Shown here piece after piece: positions 1,541 through 38,405 of a stretch of 53,203 nucleotides of DNA; positions within the stretch are counted from its first letter, which is position 1; each line of letters starts with the position of its first letter. The DNA is from Oscillospiraceae bacterium (GTDB taxonomy: Bacteria > Bacillota > Clostridia > Oscillospirales > Oscillospiraceae), in the NCBI GenBank assembly GCA_017617795.1, contig JAFZVM010000043.1, positions 1 to 53,203 on the forward strand. Reading direction: 5' to 3'. A program made the translations under genes and the position numbers. The notes beneath the pieces were generated by a model. It saw only the letters and a list, made by a program, of their open reading frames with translations. It made no database searches and was not told the DNA's origin.

Positions 1541-3343
1541 TTACTTCACCCGTTCGTAAGCGCCCTGATAGATCGCCAGGTAATCGTTCAGACCGATCTC
1601 CTCCAGGCCCTTCACGTAGGAATCCCATTCGCTCAGGGGCTTGGAGCCGTCCACAAAGGCCAGGTAGTTTTCAGAGATATACGTCCCCAGCTCAGCGCCC
1701 AGGGTCGAAGAGGCGGAACGCTCGTCGTCCGTCAGCTTCAGGCTTCTGGGCAGGAGGAAGGAGCCGTCAAAACCGGCCTTCTTGTAGGCGGCGAAGGTGT
1801 CGTAGGTCTCGATGATTCGGTCGCCGCCGTCATACCAGTAATGCTGATAGTTCTTGTCCAGACCGGGGTCCACCATGCTGTCCAGCGCGTACAGAAGAAT
1901 GTGCATGGAGTACACGTAGAGCGGATTGCCGCGCACGAACTCGCTGACCCGCTTTTCGCCCTTTTCATTGTACTCAAAGCCGTAGCCTTCGACGCCCATG
2001 GTGCAGAAATCGGATCCCTCTTCGGAGTAACGCCAGTCGATCCAGGTAAGCGCCAGAGGGATATTCTCGCATTTTGCGCTCACGGCAGCGGAGCCGTAGT
2101 ACAGGCGGCTGTCGTTGGTACCCACGTGGAGGATCTGGCCTTCATACAGGACCGGGTCGGGCATGGGGAGCATCTGCGCTCCGGGGGTGTCCAGGATGAT
2201 CTCCTGCTCGATGCCGGTGCTGGTGGACTGCACGGAGTAGCCGATCTGATCCCCCACCCAGCGGTCCATGTAACCGGCAGCGGTCATGGTGTCGAAGCTC
2301 ATCCACATGGGATCGAAGATCCCGTCCATAAACCAGCGGTTGATCTCCGTCATCAGTTCCTTATCCCGATAGGTGGTATTCGCGCCGAAGACCTGACCGT
2401 TCTCATCCACCAGCATCATCATGCTGGAGCCGGTGTAGCAATAGGTATCGAAGCAGTCCCAGTGATAGCCGCCGGATTCCAGGGTGGTGAACAGGATGCA
2501 GGGATAGGTCGCGGTGGGGATCTGGGTCTTGAAGGCCATCAAGCCGTCGTAAATTCCCTGCCAGGTCTTGAACATATCCGGATCCAGTCCCAGCTGATCG
2601 ATCCAGTCGCCCCGGACGAAAACGCCGTTCTGCACATAGGCCCGGTCTCTGAGGCAATAGAAGCAGCCGATCAGATCGTTCTGCAGGTATACGGAATTCT
2701 GCAGTCCCTCGTCCTCGGGGCTCTTGTTCACTTCATAGAGGTAATTGGGGATATATTCCCGCCAGTCGTACAGGTTGACAAAGTAGCCTTCTTCCGTGAT
2801 GCCCTTGCGGAAATCGCCGTTGTAGAAATAGTTCGCCTGGCTCATCACGTCCGGCAGCTCATCGGCGGCCAGCATGACGGAGAAGTTGTCCGACCGGGTG
2901 GCGGAGCTGACGACGTTGTAGGCGATGTGCACGCCGGTGATCTTTTCCAGTTCGATGGGATAGGGGCTGTCCTCATACTCCGTCTCCAGCCACTGGGGGG
3001 TGTACAGAGTGGTCCAGCAGGAAATCTCTTCGTCCGTGGTAGTCAGGGGCAGCTCGTACGTGTACTTCTCCAGCGGCATCCCGTCTGCGTCCGCCTTGAA
3101 GTTGCCCTTGGCAAAGTGATAGGGGGAATCGGGTTCCGGTTCCGGAGTGGCTTCAGGGGCCTCCGTCGCCGCCGGGGCTTCTGTTGCCGCAGGAGCCTGG
3201 GTAGCCGGAGCCTTTGTCGCTTCGGGAGCCTTGGTGGCAGCCGGAGCATCCGTGGCCGCCGGATTTGCTGCCGGTGAGGCACAGCCGGAGAACACGGCAG
3301 CGATCAGCAGGACCACGCAAATCAGAGCGATCGTTCGTTTCAT
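1541..3343 (-). CDS. Extracellular solute-binding lipoprotein (paralogue)
   Basis: 600 residues. The ATG at 3343 was chosen because AAGGAGG sits just upstream and a lipoprotein signal starts there (MKRTIALICVVLLIAAVFSGC, lipobox FSGC); the frame stays open further upstream but lacks these. A roughly 50-residue Ala/Thr/Pro/Glu linker with repeated APAAT units tethers the binding domain. The length and the alternating aromatic/acidic composition fit large sugar-type solute-binding proteins of the ABC-importer family. It has its own promoter and terminator and no transporter membrane genes beside it, so it either serves permeases encoded elsewhere or acts as an orphan binding protein. The substrate cannot be read from the sequence. 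Confidence 0.9.
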   Translation of the reverse strand: MKRTIALICVVLLIAAVFSGCASPAANPAATDAPAATKAPEATKAPATQAPAATEAPAATEAPEATPEPEPDSPYHFAKGNFKADADGMPLEKYTYELPLTTTDEEISCWTTLYTPQWLETEYEDSPYPIELEKITGVHIAYNVVSSATRSDNFSVMLAADELPDVMSQANYFYNGDFRKGITEEGYFVNLYDWREYIPNYLYEVNKSPEDEGLQNSVYLQNDLIGCFYCLRDRAYVQNGVFVRGDWIDQLGLDPDMFKTWQGIYDGLMAFKTQIPTATYPCILFTTLESGGYHWDCFDTYCYTGSSMMMLVDENGQVFGANTTYRDKELMTEINRWFMDGIFDPMWMSFDTMTAAGYMDRWVGDQIGYSVQSTSTGIEQEIILDTPGAQMLPMPDPVLYEGQILHVGTNDSRLYYGSAAVSAKCENIPLALTWIDWRYSEEGSDFCTMGVEGYGFEYNEKGEKRVSEFVRGNPLYVYSMHILLYALDSMVDPGLDKNYQHYWYDGGDRIIETYDTFAAYKKAGFDGSFLLPRSLKLTDDERSASSTLGAELGTYISENYLAFVDGSKPLSEWDSYVKGLEEIGLNDYLAIYQGAYERVK

Positions 3344-8932: not shown

Positions 8933-9517
8933 ATGCTGATATTCGAAGCGGTAGTATATGAGACGCCGGTTCAGCAGGCTGGGATCCAGCTTGATGAATC
9001 TCTGTTTCCACGCATTGCCGCGGACGATAAAGCAGCATTCTGCGAACTGTATGAGACCTGCTCGTCCGCCGTTTTTGCCTATGCGCTTAGTATTCTCCGC
9101 AACCGGACCGATGCCGAAGACGCCATGCAGGACACTTTTTTGAAAATACGAAGCGCCGCTCATCTGTATCAGCCCCAGGGGAAGCCCATGGCATGGGTCT
9201 TTACGATCACGAAGAATATCTGTCTGATGATGTTCAGAAGCAGGGCCCGCTTCGTTCAGATGACGGAAGAAACGCGCGAACCGGCCGAACCAGATCTGGG
9301 GCTGGATCGGATCGAAGACGCCTTAGACCGGATCACGCTGGAAAAAGCCTTTGCCGTTCTCTCGGAAGATACATGTCAGATCATTATGCTGCATGCTGTG
9401 AGCGGCATGAAGCACCGGGAGATCGCTAGCCTGTTAAGAATGCCGATATCGACCGTGCTGTCAAAATACCACCGGGGCATCAAACGACTCCAGCTGGAAT
9501 TGGAGGAGATGCAATGA
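8933..9517 (+). CDS. ECF-type sigma factor of the Asp/His-rich cassette
   Basis: 194 residues. The ATG at 8933 is preferred over the GTG at 8924 because AAGGTGG lies at the right distance. Region 2 spans about residues 30-100 (FCELYETCSSAVFAYALSIL, the DAEDAMQDTF core-binding block, then KPMAWVFTITKNICL), and region 4 about 125-190, with a helix-turn-helix in MKHREIASLLRMPISTVLSK. It should recruit RNA polymerase to specific promoters when released. The 3' end overlaps the start of the next gene (ATGA), so the sigma factor and its presumed anti-sigma partner are translated together. Confidence 0.88.
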   Translation: MLIFEAVVYETPVQQAGIQLDESLFPRIAADDKAAFCELYETCSSAVFAYALSILRNRTDAEDAMQDTFLKIRSAAHLYQPQGKPMAWVFTITKNICLMMFRSRARFVQMTEETREPAEPDLGLDRIEDALDRITLEKAFAVLSEDTCQIIMLHAVSGMKHREIASLLRMPISTVLSKYHRGIKRLQLELEEMQ

Positions 9518-10872
9518 ACAGTCTGGAAGAAAGGCAAGTGAACGAGCGTCTCCGCCGGGCAGTTTCCGGCATTCCTGCCGACCATGCGGAAAAACTCTGG
9601 AACACTTCGGTAGAAAAGGCCGACAGAGGCGCTTGGTTCCTTGAAGAAACAAAGCTGAGGCCAAGGAACACCGCCCATTTTTTCCGGTTGGCCGGGCTGG
9701 CTGCCGCATGCTTCGCAATCATCCTTCTCGGATGGTTCCAGGTATTCCGTCTGACCGACGCGACCGTTTTTCTGGATGTCAATCCAAGCGTCGCGCTGGA
9801 CGTCAACCGCATTGGGAGGATCGTCAGCGCCGAGGCCGACAATGAGGATGGCCGGATCATCCTGGATGACATGGATCTGTACGGCATGAACGTTGATGAC
9901 GCCATGAACGTGCTCTTGGGATCCATGGTCAAAAACGGTTATCTGTCACAGGAGCAAAACACACTATTGATCTCCGTCAACGGGAAGAATGGGAGCAGGA
10001 CAACGGCGCTCAGAAAACGGCTTACCGCAGATGCCGGGCATACGCTGGAAACACTTCTCGGGAACGGAGTCATCCTGGGGCAGACCTTAGACAGAGATGA
10101 CGAAGCGGAAGACATAGCCGCACATTATGGCATTACCCCAGGAAAAGCGGTGTTGATCCAGCGTATCATAACTGATCAGGCTTCCTGGAACGTGCAGGAA
10201 TTGGCATCCATGTCGATGACTGCCCTGATCCGGTACTTTGAAGCAGCTGGGATCGATTCATCTCAATACCTGGGAGAAAACGGTGAGATCATAGGCGATC
10301 TGAACTCCCTTTTGGATGAGGACGACCTTGACGACCTAGATGACGGCAATGATCGGGACGATGACGAGGGCCGGGACGATGACGATGACCTCGACACCGA
10401 TGATAATCTGGACGATGACGATGACCGCGACGATGTCCATGACCTAAACGATGACGATGATCACGACGATGTCGATGATAACGACGACGACGATGATCGC
10501 GATGACGACGATGATCACGATGACGACGATGATCACGACGACGACGATGATCACGATGACGACGATGATCACGACGACGACGATGATCACGATGACGACG
10601 ATGATCACGATGACGACGATGATCACGACGACGACGATGATCACGACGACGACGATGATCACGATGACGACGATGATCACGACGACGACGATGACCGCAG
10701 CGATATGACCGGCATTGGTGCCGGGGCAGACACCTATTACGAGCACAGACAGGAAGACCCCGGTTACTACGGCGGGAACGACCGTGACGACGACCGCGAC
10801 GATGACCACGACGACGACCGCGACGATGACCGCGACGATGACCGCGACGATGACCGCGACGACGACGATTGA
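9514..10872 (+). CDS. RsgI-like transmembrane anti-sigma factor with Asp/His-rich tail
   Basis: 452 residues. Residues 1-55 are a cytoplasmic helical segment, presumably the sigma-binding part; about 57-78 is one transmembrane helix; about 82-180 matches the conserved outer domain of RsgI-family anti-sigma factors (ATVFLDVNPSVALDVNRIG, then a Gly-Ser-Met-Val-x-x-Gly-Tyr block). In RsgI proteins the Asn-Pro bond of this motif is cleaved spontaneously as part of signalling; Asn90-Pro91 is intact here. Residues 180-260 are mixed. From about 268 to the end the chain is nearly all Asp, with His335 to His389 exactly every sixth residue (ten His), then an (Arg/His)-Asp3 repeat to the C-terminus. The tail should lie outside the cell and bind cations; that is inference. 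Confidence 0.85.
   Translation: MNSLEERQVNERLRRAVSGIPADHAEKLWNTSVEKADRGAWFLEETKLRPRNTAHFFRLAGLAAACFAIILLGWFQVFRLTDATVFLDVNPSVALDVNRIGRIVSAEADNEDGRIILDDMDLYGMNVDDAMNVLLGSMVKNGYLSQEQNTLLISVNGKNGSRTTALRKRLTADAGHTLETLLGNGVILGQTLDRDDEAEDIAAHYGITPGKAVLIQRIITDQASWNVQELASMSMTALIRYFEAAGIDSSQYLGENGEIIGDLNSLLDEDDLDDLDDGNDRDDDEGRDDDDDLDTDDNLDDDDDRDDVHDLNDDDDHDDVDDNDDDDDRDDDDDHDDDDDHDDDDDHDDDDDHDDDDDHDDDDDHDDDDDHDDDDDHDDDDDHDDDDDHDDDDDRSDMTGIGAGADTYYEHRQEDPGYYGGNDRDDDRDDDHDDDRDDDRDDDRDDDRDDDD
10498..10695 (+). repeat. Eleven 18-bp coding repeats, (Arg/His)-Asp5
   Basis: The unit is CAC followed by five Asp codons ending GATGAT, repeated in phase. The first unit carries CGC (Arg329) and the next ten CAC (His335-His389). 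The second Asp codon after His and its neighbour alternate GAT and GAC between units, so the copies are close but not identical. A tract like this can change length by replication slippage without breaking the frame. Confidence 0.95.
10783..10866 (+). repeat. Seven 12-bp coding repeats, (Arg/His)-Asp3
   Basis: Units of CGC (once CAC) plus three Asp codons end the anti-sigma gene. They are separated from the 18-bp array by a 29-residue segment containing Tyr pairs and Gly (DTYYEHRQEDPGYYGG). The period change from 18 to 12 bp shows two independent expansions. Confidence 0.9.
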
Positions 10873-11114: not shown

Positions 11115-12149
11115 TTACAGCTCCAGATACGCCGCCAGCAGATCGTGGGTGGCCTTCAGGCCTTCCATATGGGTGCGCTCGTAGCCGTGGCTGTTGGCGG
11201 TACCCGGGCCGATGGCCCCGTGGCGCACGTCGTACCCCGCTGTGATCACCGGGTCGCAGTCCGTGCCGTAATGGGGGGTAAAAATGTCCATCACGAAGGG
11301 GATACCCGCCCGGATCGCCGCCGCCCGGAGTTCGCTGGTCAGATCCCAGTGGTAGGGGTAGCGGGAGTCCTTGGCAAATATGGAGACCTTCCGCTCGTCG
11401 GAATTCTGGTCCGGCCCGGTGGGGGCGATATCGATGGCGATCATGTCCTCCACATCCCGGGGCAGCACCACAGTGCCGTGGCCGATCTCCTCATATACGG
11501 CGAAATAGGCGTAAACCTTACGCCCCGGGGTCTTCCCGCTCTCCTTCATTCCCTTCAACAAGGCCAGGAGCAGGGCGGCGCAGGCCTTATCGTCGATGAA
11601 CCGGCTCTTGATATAGCCGCCGGAAACGGTCATGCGCGGCTCCAGGGCGATGACGTCCCCGGTATCCACCCCCAGGGCCTTCGTCTCCTCAGCGCTGCGG
11701 GTATCCGCATCCAGGACGACGCATACGTTGGTGCGGAAATCCGGCAGCACGGCACGCAGCTCCTCCTCCGTCACATGGATGGAGTTGGGGGTCCGGCAGA
11801 CGGTGCCCGTATACACCTTTCCGTCCCGGGTATACACCCGGACGTTTTCCGTCACGCAGTAGAAGGGATAGAGGCCGCCCACGGGGCAGACGTTCAAGGT
11901 CCCGTCCCCGTTCACATGCCGCACCATCAGGCCGATATCGTCCACATGGGCGGTGAGGCACAGGGCGTTCCCCTCGCCCCCCAGGTCAGCGATGACGCCG
12001 CCCTTGCGGGCAACGTTGTACGGATAACCCAGCTCATCCAGGATGGCGCACAGGAGCTTCTGGATCTCCTCATACTGGCCGGTGGTGCTGTCCACCGCCA
12101 GCAGACGCCGGAAGGTATCCAGACAGTATTTCTCGTCAAAAGGGATCAT
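11115..12149 (-). CDS. M42-family metallo-aminopeptidase
   Basis: 344 residues; the ATG at 12149 follows AAAGGAG. Expected metal and catalytic residues of M42 (glutamyl aminopeptidase/PepA-like) enzymes are visible: His68-x-Asp70 in TAHVDDIG, Asp186/187 in FIDDKAC, Glu220-Glu221 in VYEEIGHG, Asp240 in IAIDIAP, and a C-terminal His in NSHGYERTH. These are cytoplasmic di-metal peptidases that trim short peptides as large tetrahedral oligomers. It lies downstream of the nitrogenase-like genes on the same strand but has its own promoter 96 bases away from them, so a functional link is doubtful. Confidence 0.92.
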   Translation of the reverse strand: MIPFDEKYCLDTFRRLLAVDSTTGQYEEIQKLLCAILDELGYPYNVARKGGVIADLGGEGNALCLTAHVDDIGLMVRHVNGDGTLNVCPVGGLYPFYCVTENVRVYTRDGKVYTGTVCRTPNSIHVTEEELRAVLPDFRTNVCVVLDADTRSAEETKALGVDTGDVIALEPRMTVSGGYIKSRFIDDKACAALLLALLKGMKESGKTPGRKVYAYFAVYEEIGHGTVVLPRDVEDMIAIDIAPTGPDQNSDERKVSIFAKDSRYPYHWDLTSELRAAAIRAGIPFVMDIFTPHYGTDCDPVITAGYDVRHGAIGPGTANSHGYERTHMEGLKATHDLLAAYLEL

Positions 12150-12187
12150 GGGATGCACTCCTTTGCAGGCACAGGCTGATTGGCCGC

Positions 12188-12220
12188 ATTTTACACCCCT
12201 TGTGGGATTCCGGCAAGGGG
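12188..12220 (-). promoter_or_regulatory. Promoter of the M42 peptidase gene with inverted repeat
   Basis: TTGCCG (12211-12216), a 17-base spacer and TAAAAT (12188-12193) on the minus strand. An inverted repeat CCCCTTG/CAAGGGG (12196-12220) spans the spacer and the -35 box and could be an operator. Confidence 0.6.
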
Positions 12221-12245
12221 AAACGGGCAAAAGAATCTGCACCCT

Positions 12246-13472
12246 TTATATTTTGCTCATCAGTCCGTTCAGCACCTGCTCGATGAGGAACAGGGCCCCG
12301 TTTACCCCCAGGTGGGTCTTGGGGATCAGGTCCGTATAGCCCATGCTGGGCATCCTCGCCTCGATCCCGCAGAAGGTCCGGTTCTCCAGCATGAGCTCCG
12401 CGATCACGTTGGCGTCGGAGAATACCAGCTCCGCTTCCTGCGCCGGGGACGGGATCATGGCCAGGTAGTCCCGGAGAAAAGCGGTATAAGCCCTGTCCGC
12501 GGAGGGGCCGATATCCACGTGGAACTTCACACCCCGGGGCCTGCCGTAGCTCTGCTCAAAGTCCCGGAGCTTGTACCAGGCCAGGGCCCGGGCCCGGCGG
12601 CTCTCCTCCAGGGCGGGGGCAGGATCCTTCCCCAGTCGGCGGCACACATCCTCTACGAATCGCTCCGAAGCGGAAAAGCCCACGGGCAGGTCCGGGCAGA
12701 GATACGGCGTGCCCCAGGCCTCCTCCAGATATTTCGCGCAATCCAACCCCAGTTCCGGGCAGACCACCAGATTCAGCTCCGCCTCCGGGAGCCGCTCCAG
12801 CTCGGGCACCGAAGTCCCGGCGCAGAGTACCGCCCCGATCCCGACGCCGCAGAGGGCGAGCAGGCGCTTCAATTCCAGCACGTCTCCCTCATGGTATCGC
12901 TGCCAGAGGTTCACCCCCAGGAGGTTCACCCGGCCCGGGACTTCCCTGTCCTTCCGCAGTTTCAGGCCTTTCAGGACCTGGAGAGCGGCGGCGGAGGCCC
13001 CATCCTCCCAGGAGGCGGACCAGCCCGGCGTCTCCAGCAGAATGACCTTCTCACCCAGCAGGGCCCTGGCTGGCTCCAGAAGAGCGTCTCCGATGAGGGC
13101 TGCCCCGGGGGAATTCACGATGGCCAGCAGATCGAAGGCCACGTGATCCCGGATGTACGCCAACGCCTCCAGCACCTTCTCCCGGGTGCCGTATACGTAG
13201 TCCTCTCCGTCCAGCCAGGTGCAGGGTACCCGCTCCTGACGGAAAAACCAGTTGTTCAGCGTATTGTAATCCACCGGCCTGGCTTCTCCTCCCTCCTCCT
13301 GGGGCAGGCGCAGCAGGGGGCGGATGGTGAGGAAGCGGGAGGTGGTGCTGTGGTAGAAGCGGCAGCCCATGGGTCCGTTCAGCAGCACCACGGCGTTCCG
13401 GATGCCTTCCATGGCGAAAATGGCCCCGGTGGTGCAGTCAGGCGTAATACTCTTGGAACCAGCGTTCGTCAT
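12246..13472 (-). CDS. Nitrogenase component 1-like protein, NifK-type partner
   Basis: 408 residues. The start at 13472 overlaps the upstream fusion gene by 35 bases and is needed to include Cys13 in the conserved DCTTGAIF block. The second conserved cysteine is Cys37 in NGPMGCRFYH. Where NifD/NifK proteins carry the third cluster cysteine before IGDD, this protein has IVNSPGAALIGDA, with Asn/Ser and no Cys. The rest follows the component 1 fold: NLLGVNLWQRY, CPELGLDCAKYLEEAWG, PVGFSASERFVEDV. By family such proteins form a heterodimer with a NifD-like subunit and carry Fe-S centres used for multi-electron reductions. The substrate is unknown; there is no sign of FeMo-cofactor genes. Confidence 0.85.
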   Translation of the reverse strand: MTNAGSKSITPDCTTGAIFAMEGIRNAVVLLNGPMGCRFYHSTTSRFLTIRPLLRLPQEEGGEARPVDYNTLNNWFFRQERVPCTWLDGEDYVYGTREKVLEALAYIRDHVAFDLLAIVNSPGAALIGDALLEPARALLGEKVILLETPGWSASWEDGASAAALQVLKGLKLRKDREVPGRVNLLGVNLWQRYHEGDVLELKRLLALCGVGIGAVLCAGTSVPELERLPEAELNLVVCPELGLDCAKYLEEAWGTPYLCPDLPVGFSASERFVEDVCRRLGKDPAPALEESRRARALAWYKLRDFEQSYGRPRGVKFHVDIGPSADRAYTAFLRDYLAMIPSPAQEAELVFSDANVIAELMLENRTFCGIEARMPSMGYTDLIPKTHLGVNGALFLIEQVLNGLMSKI

Positions 13473-15627
13473 TCTTCCACTCCCCCTCGCTTTCGTTTTT
13501 GTTCAGCTGGGCCCAGCGGCGGAGGACCGTGAGGCCGGAGCCGAAGCCGATGGGCTGGGTCATGGGCAGGGTGTCCGTCAGATAGTCTCCCTCCCCCTTC
13601 CCGGCGGTGAAGTTCCCCAGGACCAGGTCCGGCTTCAGCTCCCGGATCTTTTCCTCCACCTGCCTGGCCCCGGTGATCTCTTCAATGGCGGAGAAGCGTT
13701 CCTTCCGGTCCGTGACATGCAGCTCCCGGCGCAGATAGTTCAGCACCCCGATCCACACGAACTCCATGCCGCAGTCCTCCGCCGCGTCCAGGAGCCAGTC
13801 CTGGTTGGCGTTGATGGTGGTCATGAGCACCCGCTTCCCCCGGAGCAGCGGGCGCAGGACTTCGATCTCCCGCCGGTAATCCGCCTCCTCCCGGGCGATC
13901 AGGGCCTCAGCTTCCTCCCGGCAATCGAAGAAATCTCCCAGTTCCAGGAGGAAGTCCCGGGTGGCGCGGAAGCCGATGGGCAGCGTACCGGGCTTGAACC
14001 GGCAGCCATACTCCGATTCCAGCCAGGCCTTCAGCTCCAGGTTATCCTGGCTGTCCGTGGCCAGGAGGTTCAAAGGGGCGGCGGTGAGGTTCCTGAGCTC
14101 CTCAGCCGTGCAGTCCCCCAGGAAACGGCAGCCGATGGAGATCCCCATGCCCTCCAGGAGGCGGCGCAGGGTCCGGTAATCCGACTCGGTATAGTAGCTC
14201 ACCCCCACCTCCCCGATGAGGTTCACCGTCCGGGGCTGCGTCGGCGCGTCCCGGCGCACCAGCTTTTCCGCCAGGGTATGGAGGCAGAGACGGATCCCTT
14301 CCATATAGTCTCCGCCGATCACCCCGTCCGCCGGAACGGCGATCACCGGGGTCTCGGGGGTGGACAGGCGCTCCAGGCTCAGCAGGTCGTCCCCGATGAT
14401 GCCGCTGACGCAGGAGCTGATCACCACCACCGCTCCGGGCTTTCGCTCCAGAGCCTTTTCCACCCGGGCCCTCAGCTTTTCCGCACCGCCGAACACGGCC
14501 TCGGCGTGGCCCAGCTCCGTTGTCTCATAGTTGGGGCTGAGAGCGGAGGGCATGACGATGCCCCGGTTGAAGATGTTCTTTCTTCCCGGCGAGCTGATGT
14601 TCTGCCAGGTATAGAAGGCGCAGGATCGGGGGGACTGGGCGATGACGACGGCGTCCGTCAGATGGATGGCCGTGGTGGAGGCTCCGTTGAAGGCACAGCC
14701 GTACAGAGGCATGCGGGACTCCCCGGCCTCCGGGGCCGGGACAGGGGTCGGTCTTTCCGCCGCTCTCTCCTCCGGCTTTTCCGGAATGCGGACCGGTATC
14801 CCTGCGCTTCCGCCCCGGAACACCGCGTCTTCCAGGACCTCGTCCTCCAGAGGTCTCGCCTCATAGAGGGTGAGACCCTGCCGGATCTTATCCGCCAGGT
14901 GGGTGAACACGGTCTTTTCCTCCTCAAAGCCCTCCAGGGCCAGAAGAGGCTTCCCCTCCTCCTCGCCCCGGGAAAAGGCCTCGCTCCGGGGTACCCGGGC
15001 CACGATGGGCAGTCCCGTCGCCCGGGCGAAGCGTTCCACCCGCTCCGCCTCCCCGGCCATATTGCGTTCATTGAAGATGATCCCAGCCGTCCGGCGGCAA
15101 TCGCCGCCGTCGAAATTCCGGATGCCCCGGAGGATATTGTTGGCGGCGTAAAGCGCCATAAATTCCCCGCTGGTCACCAGAAACACCCCGTCGGCGTACT
15201 CCCGGCGGATGGGTACGGCGAAACCGCCGCAGACCACGTCCCCCAGCACGTCATAGATCAGGATATCGTAATCGGACTTGGCCCGGTGCCGCTCCAGGAA
15301 CTCAAAGGCGGTGATGATGCCCCGGCCGGCGCAGCCCACGCCGGGCTTCGGACCGCCCGCTTCCACGCAGCCGACGCCGCCCCAGCCTATCCGCAGCACC
15401 GCCTCCAGCTTTTCCTCCTCTTTGGACACGGTACGGAGATAGTCCAGCACCGTGGGAAGGCTGCCGCCCCCCAGCAGCAGGCGGGTGGAATCATGCTTGG
15501 GGTCGCAGCCCACCTGCAGCACCCGGCTGCCCGCCGCCGCCAGGGCGGCGGAGAGGTTCGCGCTGACGGTGGATTTGCCGATGCCCCCCTTGCCGTACAG
15601 GGCCAGCTCCAGTCGTTTTTGCTCCAT
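13438..15627 (-). CDS. NifH-NifD-like fusion: Fe-protein plus component 1 subunit
   Basis: 729 residues in one unbroken frame; ATG behind GAGGAGAG. Residues 1-260 are a complete NifH-type Fe-protein: P-loop GKGGIGKST (12-20), Cys99 in GVGCAGRGI and Cys133 in GDVVCGGF, the two ligands of the bridging [4Fe-4S] cluster. A Pro/Glu-rich linker (about 280-304) joins it to a NifD-like component 1 domain (305-710) with Cys311, Cys336 and Cys406 (SSCVSGIIGDD), the usual three-cysteine set. The Fe-protein normally is a separate homodimer that docks and leaves each cycle, so covalent fusion is unusual. The following gene overlaps and supplies the NifK-like partner. The enzyme should use ATP hydrolysis to drive low-potential reduction of an unknown substrate. 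Confidence 0.88.
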   Translation of the reverse strand: MEQKRLELALYGKGGIGKSTVSANLSAALAAAGSRVLQVGCDPKHDSTRLLLGGGSLPTVLDYLRTVSKEEEKLEAVLRIGWGGVGCVEAGGPKPGVGCAGRGIITAFEFLERHRAKSDYDILIYDVLGDVVCGGFAVPIRREYADGVFLVTSGEFMALYAANNILRGIRNFDGGDCRRTAGIIFNERNMAGEAERVERFARATGLPIVARVPRSEAFSRGEEEGKPLLALEGFEEEKTVFTHLADKIRQGLTLYEARPLEDEVLEDAVFRGGSAGIPVRIPEKPEERAAERPTPVPAPEAGESRMPLYGCAFNGASTTAIHLTDAVVIAQSPRSCAFYTWQNISSPGRKNIFNRGIVMPSALSPNYETTELGHAEAVFGGAEKLRARVEKALERKPGAVVVISSCVSGIIGDDLLSLERLSTPETPVIAVPADGVIGGDYMEGIRLCLHTLAEKLVRRDAPTQPRTVNLIGEVGVSYYTESDYRTLRRLLEGMGISIGCRFLGDCTAEELRNLTAAPLNLLATDSQDNLELKAWLESEYGCRFKPGTLPIGFRATRDFLLELGDFFDCREEAEALIAREEADYRREIEVLRPLLRGKRVLMTTINANQDWLLDAAEDCGMEFVWIGVLNYLRRELHVTDRKERFSAIEEITGARQVEEKIRELKPDLVLGNFTAGKGEGDYLTDTLPMTQPIGFGSGLTVLRRWAQLNKNESEGEWKNDERWFQEYYA

Positions 15628-38097: not shown

Positions 38098-38405
38098 AGG
38101 GCAGAACCGCACACCCGCCTTTGACCGCTTTGATCCGTTCGGAATCCCTGCAGCCGGCTCGGGACCGGCTGCCTCGCGGCACACGTGGCGCACCGCTTAA
38201 TGCTGCTCGGTCTCCCGCCTGACATGGTTCACGGGGCCGCGTTGCGCAAGACCGATCCGTCATTACTGCTTACAGGGAGCAGACAACACACCAAAGGGCC
38301 GGGGGCGGGGATTCATCCCTGCTGTAGCGGTTTGCAGGTACAGGGCACCGCTAACTCCCCGACTAGTGCGGCTCTGCCCCGCGTCGGTCGGGGCTTTGCC
38401 GATAT
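38098..38405 (-). ncRNA. ffs: Large-type signal recognition particle RNA
   Basis: The minus strand carries the core GTGAACCATGTCAGG ... GAGCAGCATTAAGC (about 38192-38232) and an Alu-domain part matching Bacillus scRNA, including GGGGAGTTAGCGGTGCCCTG and TACCTGCAA-CCGCT. The ends pair: GGGGCAGAGCCGCAC near 38366-38380 with GTGCGGTTCTGCCCT near 38098-38112. The apical helix 8 loop is CGG-GAGA-CCG (38208-38217), a GNRA tetraloop replacing the usual GGAA. The 5' end is estimated from the promoter and may be processed to about 38380. It partners Ffh to target membrane proteins. Confidence 0.93.

Follow-up and report, generated by a model that had tools for sequence, protein, structure and literature searches.

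A NifH-NifD fusion shared by gut Clostridia and Methanomassiliicoccales, a candidate corrinoid reductase with a tethered Fe protein

The DNA analyzed here (the window) is a 53,203-nucleotide contig, JAFZVM010000043.1, from the Oscillospiraceae bacterium assembly GCA_017617795.1. Its minus strand carries a two-gene nitrogenase-like system, which we call HD-K: an Fe protein (H) and a component-1 subunit (D) joined in one NifH-NifD fusion protein, HD, followed by a NifK-like partner, K. Judging from sequence and from the gene context of relatives, we give an even chance to the reading that HD-K is a nitrogenase-like reductase driven by ATP, which belongs with the tetrapyrrole-reducing enzymes and whose substrate would most likely be a corrinoid (B12-type). 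Somewhat more tentatively, HD-K may supply the B12 branch that the nitrogenase superfamily has so far lacked, as a corrinoid-dedicated, cob(I)-making enzyme with a tethered Fe protein, a single fusion having passed between the methanogens and the Clostridia of the gut.

A nitrogenase-like enzyme exists for each of three other tetrapyrrole branches, namely chlorophyll (dark-operative protochlorophyllide reductase, DPOR), bacteriochlorophyll (chlorophyllide a reductase, COR), and F430 (CfbCD); for B12 metabolism we know of none. That the donor dissociates in each cycle has long been regarded as part of the nitrogenase mechanism, and a tethered Fe protein would be a natural test of the need for it. 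The two-gene system is also experimentally tractable, as it is carried by a cultured acetogen, Acetitomaculum ruminis. A NifH-NifD fusion was known in archaea, to which the bacterial counterpart adds; the literature that we searched, which mostly excluded subscription papers, yielded neither a bacterial fusion nor a B12 role, and we found no report there of a functional test for an archaeal or a bacterial fusion. Finally, some rumen studies count NifH homologues as nitrogenases, as in the excerpt available from PMC6776011, and such surveys could tally HD proteins as nitrogen fixation or hydrogen production.

The fusion and its distribution

The HD gene (13438..15627, minus strand, as are all features of the pair) is a single 729-codon frame encoding 729 amino acids. 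Its Fe-protein domain covers residues 8-268 (14824..15606; Pfam Fer4_NifH, E 2e-87) with a P-loop at residues 12-20, and is followed by a Pro/Glu/Ala-rich linker of 35 residues (271-305; 14713..14817) and a component-1 domain (residues 306-729; 13441..14712), in which Pfam Oxidored_nitro matches residues 311-675 at E 1e-65. The K gene (12246..13472) encodes 408 amino acids, of which residues 15-339 match Oxidored_nitro at E 6e-42, and it overlaps HD by 35 bases (13438..13472). An earlier reading made from the sequence only had described an uninterrupted frame with both domains complete, the P-loop, five cysteines (Cys99, Cys133, Cys311, Cys336, and Cys406), and an overlapping NifK-like gene, and the frame check, the Pfam matches, and the coordinates agree with it throughout. 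Elsewhere in the window's genome (G000; 2.32 Mb in 155 contigs, 77% complete), PF00142 matched over its cut-off only a P-loop stretch (36 bits, 44 model positions of a 525-residue frame) and, under the cut-off, another short P-loop stretch at 24 bits. Apart from D and K, no PF00148 match exceeded the cut-off in this genome, the one sub-threshold match scoring 21 bits.

We looked for relatives in 200 genomes of the window's family (the family sample) and 391 genomes of its class (the class sample). Full-length fusions without a stop, at 60-100% identity, were present in 7 of the 200 family genomes, and fusions in 5 of the 391 class genomes, the window's genome being counted in both. The fusion family is thus rare in Clostridia. 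When genome contigs were scanned with the D half, 78 loci emerged. The close ones (L057-L102) comprised 46 loci in 45 genomes, six of these genomes being common to the family sample. Their hosts were rumen and gut Lachnospiraceae and Oscillospiraceae metagenome-assembled genomes (MAGs), one Eggerthellaceae MAG, and isolates that include A. ruminis DSM 5522 (L091) and Lachnospiraceae TWA4 (L098).

H and D lay in one open frame in 41 of these 46 further loci. In the remaining five, either a contig end cut the locus (L084, L093, and L095) or the frame broke between the halves (L090 and L094), and several of the 41 had a break or cut elsewhere (L075, L092, L098, L101, and L102). The broken frames of HD or K genes that are conserved in other respects (L090, L092, L094, L102, and L098 of the acetogen isolate TWA4) may reflect decay or sequencing error. 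Every one of the 7 fusion loci in the first sample had an overlap of exactly 35 bases between HD and K, as did 27 of the 40 loci measured in the larger set; the remaining 13 values (34 to 257, with one broken) hinge on the start codon taken by our script. The ratio of non-synonymous to synonymous substitution rates (dN/dS) between the window and L057 was 0.13, and between the window and L058 it was 0.19. Because one frame joins the halves in most loci and dN/dS is this low, the fusion is genuine and conserved, not an artefact; its conservation across genomes had been left as a check by the sequence-only reading. The linker evolved faster (dN/dS 0.30 against L057 and 0.55 against L058) than the halves (0.10-0.17) and varied from 34 to 62 residues among the 18 loci listed, which matches the expectation for a freely variable tether.

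Searches of viral contigs found no relative, and those of phage records gave two matches, both to the H half only and both without annotation. One of them, MT836848 (H51), a faecal "Bacteriophage sp.", has a NifH-like stretch with 49.6% identity to the H half. For plasmids only the H half served as the query, fused relatives not being sought there; 264 records matched, of which 50 were listed, and H was 42-52% identical to plasmid NifH proteins among the matches listed.

Loci of identical architecture, with a fusion of 712-782 amino acids and then K, occur in Methanomassiliicoccales, with broken frames in a few copies (L104, L108, and L114). Across 147 genomes of the order of archaeal genome G247, a whole-fusion model matched 119 at E 1e-60 or better. 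The best match spanned the H-D junction in 87 of the 147, including 14 with one internal stop; another 29 of the 119 had a best E of only ~1e-80 to 1e-107, which we read as separate H proteins, and the last 3 fell between these groups. The fusion family is therefore common in Methanomassiliicoccales. Some archaeal genomes had 5-7 matches at E 1e-60 or better, halves included, among the at most 7 candidates scored per genome. The sequence-only reading had set the fusion against known systems whose Fe protein is separate, but the fusion does have a precedent: a NifH-NifD/E fusion in Methanomassiliicoccales is mentioned in the excerpts available from PMC4153887 and PMC11237513, and our trees unite the fusions of archaea and bacteria.

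Compared with the window, the archaeal loci are alike in gene order and in the fusion itself, with H 53-57%, D 26-30%, and K 25-30% identical. However, they often occur in several copies per genome, some with neighboring FecCD, CbiZ, ChlI/ChlD, or CobN genes, whereas the window copy is bacterial, is the only one found in its genome, and has none of these neighbors. As a separate observation, the 1.9-Mb archaeal genome G248 (L114 and L151-L157) has 43 FecCD matches, 12 CobN matches, and, with 7 candidates scored, at least 7 fusion-model matches, so that its capacity to handle tetrapyrroles or chelates seems greatly expanded.

Cysteines, phylogeny, and known relatives

To describe the cysteines of HD, we aligned 40 fused proteins (30 bacterial and 10 archaeal) picked for complete frames, and the five named above were invariant in all 40. 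By homology, Cys99 (codon 15331..15333, minus strand, as for the other codons) and Cys133 (15229..15231) would be ligands of the Fe-protein [4Fe-4S] cluster. Cys311 (14695..14697), which aligns with a BchY cysteine, Cys336 (14620..14622), and Cys406 (14410..14412) are predicted ligands of a cluster between D and K. In K, Cys37 (13362..13364) was the sole invariant cysteine among 37 aligned proteins and is the predicted fourth ligand; Cys13 of the window's K was not conserved. Cys37 aligned with a cysteine of BchZ and with an aspartate of BchB. The BchYZ cysteines are ligands of the bridging [4Fe-4S] of COR, and the BchB aspartate is a ligand of the DPOR cluster. The pattern predicts one four-cysteine [4Fe-4S] cluster, held by three cysteines of D and one of K, as in COR. 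At the position of the FeMo-cofactor cysteine the window has threonine, and nine other fusions compared also lacked a cysteine there. By alignment, then, HD-K has neither the P-cluster cysteine set nor the FeMo-cofactor cysteine.

Trees placed the bacterial and archaeal fusions together in each subunit, which partly answers a second check that the sequence-only reading had proposed. For H they formed one clade (support 100/99 with 61 rows and 91/93 with 85 rows) separate from NifH, MarH, CfbC, BchL, and the unfused relatives. Support was 100/96 for the fused D clade and 100/99 for the fused K clade in a 90-row tree from which the unfused same-family rows, along with some long ones, were left out, and 98 for each in a quick 121-row tree that included the unfused same-family rows. 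The trees contained no references labeled group VI. The fused state was a single change on the 61-row H tree; on the 85-row tree the bacterial fusions were not one clade, with L173 branching apart. These trees imply an old transfer between archaea and bacteria. Closest to the fused D were component-1 proteins of Selenomonas and Centipeda (100/97 in the 90-row tree). We note that no NifH was found within the loci of these D-K pairs (L119, L121, L123, L124, L127, and L130), that an apparent FecCD importer adjoins the pair in L119 by reading of the sequence, and that a molybdenum riboswitch (RF01055, 6378-6528) lies ~1.2 kb ahead of the pair in L130.

Because H, D, and K scored far below the NCBIfam cut-offs of NifH, CfbC, BchL, BchX, NifD, NifE, and BchB, HD-K falls outside all of these named families. 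It shares its superfamily with Mo nitrogenase (NifHDK) and NifEN. However, the equivalog cut-offs for NifH (298 of 394 bits) and NifD (101 of 654 bits) were not reached, the single invariant cysteine of K contrasts with the six-cysteine P-cluster set, and the window's genome has no second component-1 pair over the Pfam cut-off. The description of HD-K as nitrogenase-like in the sequence-only reading is supported; it is not nitrogenase, and its nucleotide and cluster motifs are intact. COR (BchXYZ) has in common with HD-K the pattern of three D cysteines and one K cysteine, but its BchX is a separate protein, and H reached only 194 of 331 bits against BchX, the BchZ scores being 32 and 41 of 529 bits. 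DPOR (BchLNB) likewise combines an ATP-driven H with an N-B pair, and BchB was the best NCBIfam model for K, although at 80 of 490 bits; it differs in the BchB aspartate at the position of Cys37, in its separate BchL, and in scores far under the cut-offs. CfbCD of F430 synthesis resembles HD-K as a nitrogenase-like tetrapyrrole reductase of anaerobes, but CfbC and CfbD are separate proteins, H scored 297 of 402 bits against CfbC, and H lies outside CfbC in the tree. MarH of methylthio-alkane reductase (Mar) forms a supported clade separate from H of HD-K.

Unfused H-D-K systems also occur in the window's bacterial family (L043-L056) and in Treponema saccharophilum (L138), with H 44-57% identical to that of the fusion; here the genes are separate and lie outside the fused clade. 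FecCD importers adjoin 5 of the 14 unfused same-family loci (L046, L048, L049, L051, and L053, in gut Clostridia), and an importer of this type also accompanies L138, on a T. saccharophilum plasmid. As a further observation, the unfused genes of L044, L045, L047, and L055 adjoin HypF, HypD, and HypE-like (AIRS) genes, with radical SAM or TM1266-like genes in some; these were assigned by Pfam for L045 and parts of L044, and otherwise by clustering and tblastn. L045 has two H-D-K sets, and no hydrogenase subunit was recognized among its genes listed. HypF, HypD, and HypE make the cyanide ligand of [NiFe]-hydrogenase, and cyanide/CO-ligand chemistry in a nitrogenase-like enzyme would be a novelty. 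We did not extend this link to the fusion, as HypD was not found in the window's genome.

Corrinoid genes beside relatives and the candidate substrate

No neighbor cluster was common to more than 5 of 47 bacterial fused loci (the window and L057-L102). Corrinoid genes or control elements nonetheless stand beside some relatives. In L173, on a 1.76-Mb contig of G287, a cobalamin riboswitch (3037-3152; 34.6 bits, gathering threshold 31.5) lies 88 bases ahead of an unbroken one-strand gene run with intergenic gaps of -32 to +18. The run encodes a 295-residue protein without a Pfam match, an energy-coupling factor (ECF) ATPase, a surface-layer homology (SLH) protein, a DUF4430 protein, HD, K, and an ECF S protein; from its place in the operon, the 295-residue protein is a putative ECF T. 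The SLH protein matches a toroid domain below the Pfam cut-off (21.3 of 26.5 bits), and DUF4430 is found at the C-terminus of animal B12 carriers, according to an excerpt of PMC4350170. In L078, HD and K are followed 25 bases downstream by cbiG, with Pfam CbiG_N and CbiG_C over their cut-offs and the NCBIfam CbiG models under theirs. The other strand of L078 carries hemL, cbiF, hemA/cbiH, and hemC, all over cut-off, behind a 117.5-bit cobalamin riboswitch.

Among the archaea, L184 (the same locus as L106) has HD, K, and a cbiF truncated by the contig end, with cbiA and cobO divergent. L188, L189, and L190 share one order (binding protein, FecCD, ATP-binding cassette ATPase, CbiZ, ChlI, ChlD, HD, and K), that of L189 being drawn from tblastn alone, and CobN lies near HD-K in these operons. 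CbiZ stands immediately ahead of HD in L120 and L202, so that it is upstream in five archaeal loci. CbiZ is an enzyme that cleaves cobinamides in corrinoid salvage. By tblastn, 41 archaeal HD-K loci, in which two pairs (L106/L184 and L116/L202) are one locus each, had FecCD in 27, CobN in 12, ChlI in 6, ChlD in 5, CbiZ in 6, CobO in 3, CbiA in 2, and CbiF in 2. A PF04071 Cys-rich small protein is encoded just upstream in L170 (by Pfam) and L171 (by tblastn).

A tethered reductase with one bridging cluster would fit the tetrapyrrole-reducing side of the superfamily, and a corrinoid is the likeliest substrate because corrinoid genes recur beside some relatives. We propose that the two H domains of an (HD)2K2 assembly would pair, bind ATP, and dock onto one D-K half. 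The [4Fe-4S] of H would then hand low-potential electrons singly to the predicted bridging [4Fe-4S] (Cys311, Cys336, and Cys406 of D with Cys37 of K), from which they would pass to the substrate in the D-K cavity. The 35-residue linker would hold the donor tethered, so the enzyme would need just its own two genes and no conserved cofactor-assembly neighbor. Canonical component 1 takes an Fe-protein dimer at each of two sites, so that D2K2 works with four H; with a 1:1 fusion there are only two, and (HD)2K2 could therefore load its halves only in turn, barring larger assemblies. The likeliest step would take a corrinoid, whether imported or freshly synthesized, to cob(I) ahead of adenosylation. 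We favor this step because salvage ends in adenosylation, which requires cob(I), and because an ATP-driven Fe protein could provide the potential.

Several observations weigh against a corrinoid substrate. The usual reduction of cob(II) is flavin-driven. Our searches detected neither corrinoid genes nor a cobalamin riboswitch in the window, and of the 51 bacterial loci with a fusion (3-19 kb each plus the window, searched with gene queries from one or two relatives), 49 showed none of cbiF, cbiG, and a cobalamin riboswitch. Chance density may suffice for two riboswitches in 51 loci, so we place the weight on position, that is, on the shared transcription unit of L173 and on cbiG after K in L078. 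Still, the L173 riboswitch is barely over threshold, and that of L078 is on the opposite strand and does not drive HD-K. Searches of the PDB with the toroid and DUF4430 proteins of L173 named no B12 carrier, which leaves Pfam domains as the sole basis for its likeness to transcobalamin. The frequency of FecCD at archaeal loci is partly expected, as the 43 matches in G248 illustrate, and CobN-type proteins can be heme dechelatases, according to an excerpt of PMC12583661. The sequence-only reading had left the substrate open, with no nifB, nifEN, molybdate, chlorophyll, or F430 genes in view, a list for which we made no search by name in the window; the context of relatives now points to the chemistry of corrinoids or tetrapyrroles. 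In the window's copy, a corrinoid role would follow by homology, provided that it acts like its relatives.

The main rival to cob(I) formation is that HD-K reduces double bonds of the tetrapyrrole ring rather than cobalt, either as a step of anaerobic corrin synthesis or in converting scavenged gut tetrapyrroles such as chlorophyll or heme products. We consider this unlikely, though it is the best of the alternatives. The COR-like cysteine set, the ChlI, ChlD, and CobN genes adjoining HD-K in several archaea, and the cbiF or cbiG genes of L078 and L184 would all suit it, and ring reduction is what DPOR, COR, and CfbCD, all nitrogenase-like, do to their tetrapyrroles (PMC7242693, in excerpt). 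However, CbiZ and the importer operon headed by a riboswitch suggest salvage of finished corrinoids, whose ring is already as fully reduced as needed. A search for CobN, moreover, found it in just 2 of 45 bacterial carriers and did not find it in the window's genome, on which grounds we also rejected it as a partner for the bacterial branch.

That HD-K reduces an iron chelate (heme or siderophore) brought in by FecCD, for iron supply, seems improbable. It would account for the FecCD genes near archaeal and unfused loci, and a gut CobN-like protein, HmuS, frees iron from heme (PMC12583661). By contrast, CbiZ, CbiG, CbiF, CobO, and the cobalamin riboswitches all relate to corrinoids, and FecCD was found in 0 of the 51 bacterial fused loci by tblastn with one archaeal FecCD query.

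We regard as very doubtful a direct role in carbon fixation by acetogenesis, for example as an ATP-driven reductant for the corrinoid protein of the Wood-Ljungdahl pathway. In the family sample, acetyl-CoA synthase (PF03598 at E 1e-15 or better, in counts that, like those below, ignore kinship) was present in 6 of 7 carriers vs. 58 of 193 other genomes; in the contig set 29 of the 45 carriers had it and two more matched weakly. The acetogens A. ruminis and TWA4 are carriers. In the class sample, however, the synthase was present in 1 of 5 carriers (the window's own genome) vs. 21 of 386 others, and the four carriers without it are 99-100% complete. On these class-sample counts we rejected acetogenesis as a general role. 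Least credible is that HD-K is a nitrogenase, a Mar/Nfl enzyme that scavenges sulfur, or some other reductase of small molecules that carries an 8Fe-type cofactor. This alternative has superfamily membership in its favor but is opposed by scores far under every NCBIfam nif cut-off, the missing FeMo-cofactor cysteine, a K with one invariant cysteine, and an H clade separate from NifH and MarH.

Other features of the window

Three bases past K lies an M42 peptidase gene (11115..12242, minus strand). It adjoins HD-K only in the window, L057, and L058 among the 47 loci compared, and is probably not part of the system. On the plus strand, a 452-residue frame (9514-10872) that comes after a putative sigma-factor gene, by reading of the sequence, has a C-terminal part made up of a long Asp-Asp-Asp-His type repeat. 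The window also encodes a bacterial large signal recognition particle RNA (RF01854, 190.8 bits) at 38107-38371 on the minus strand.

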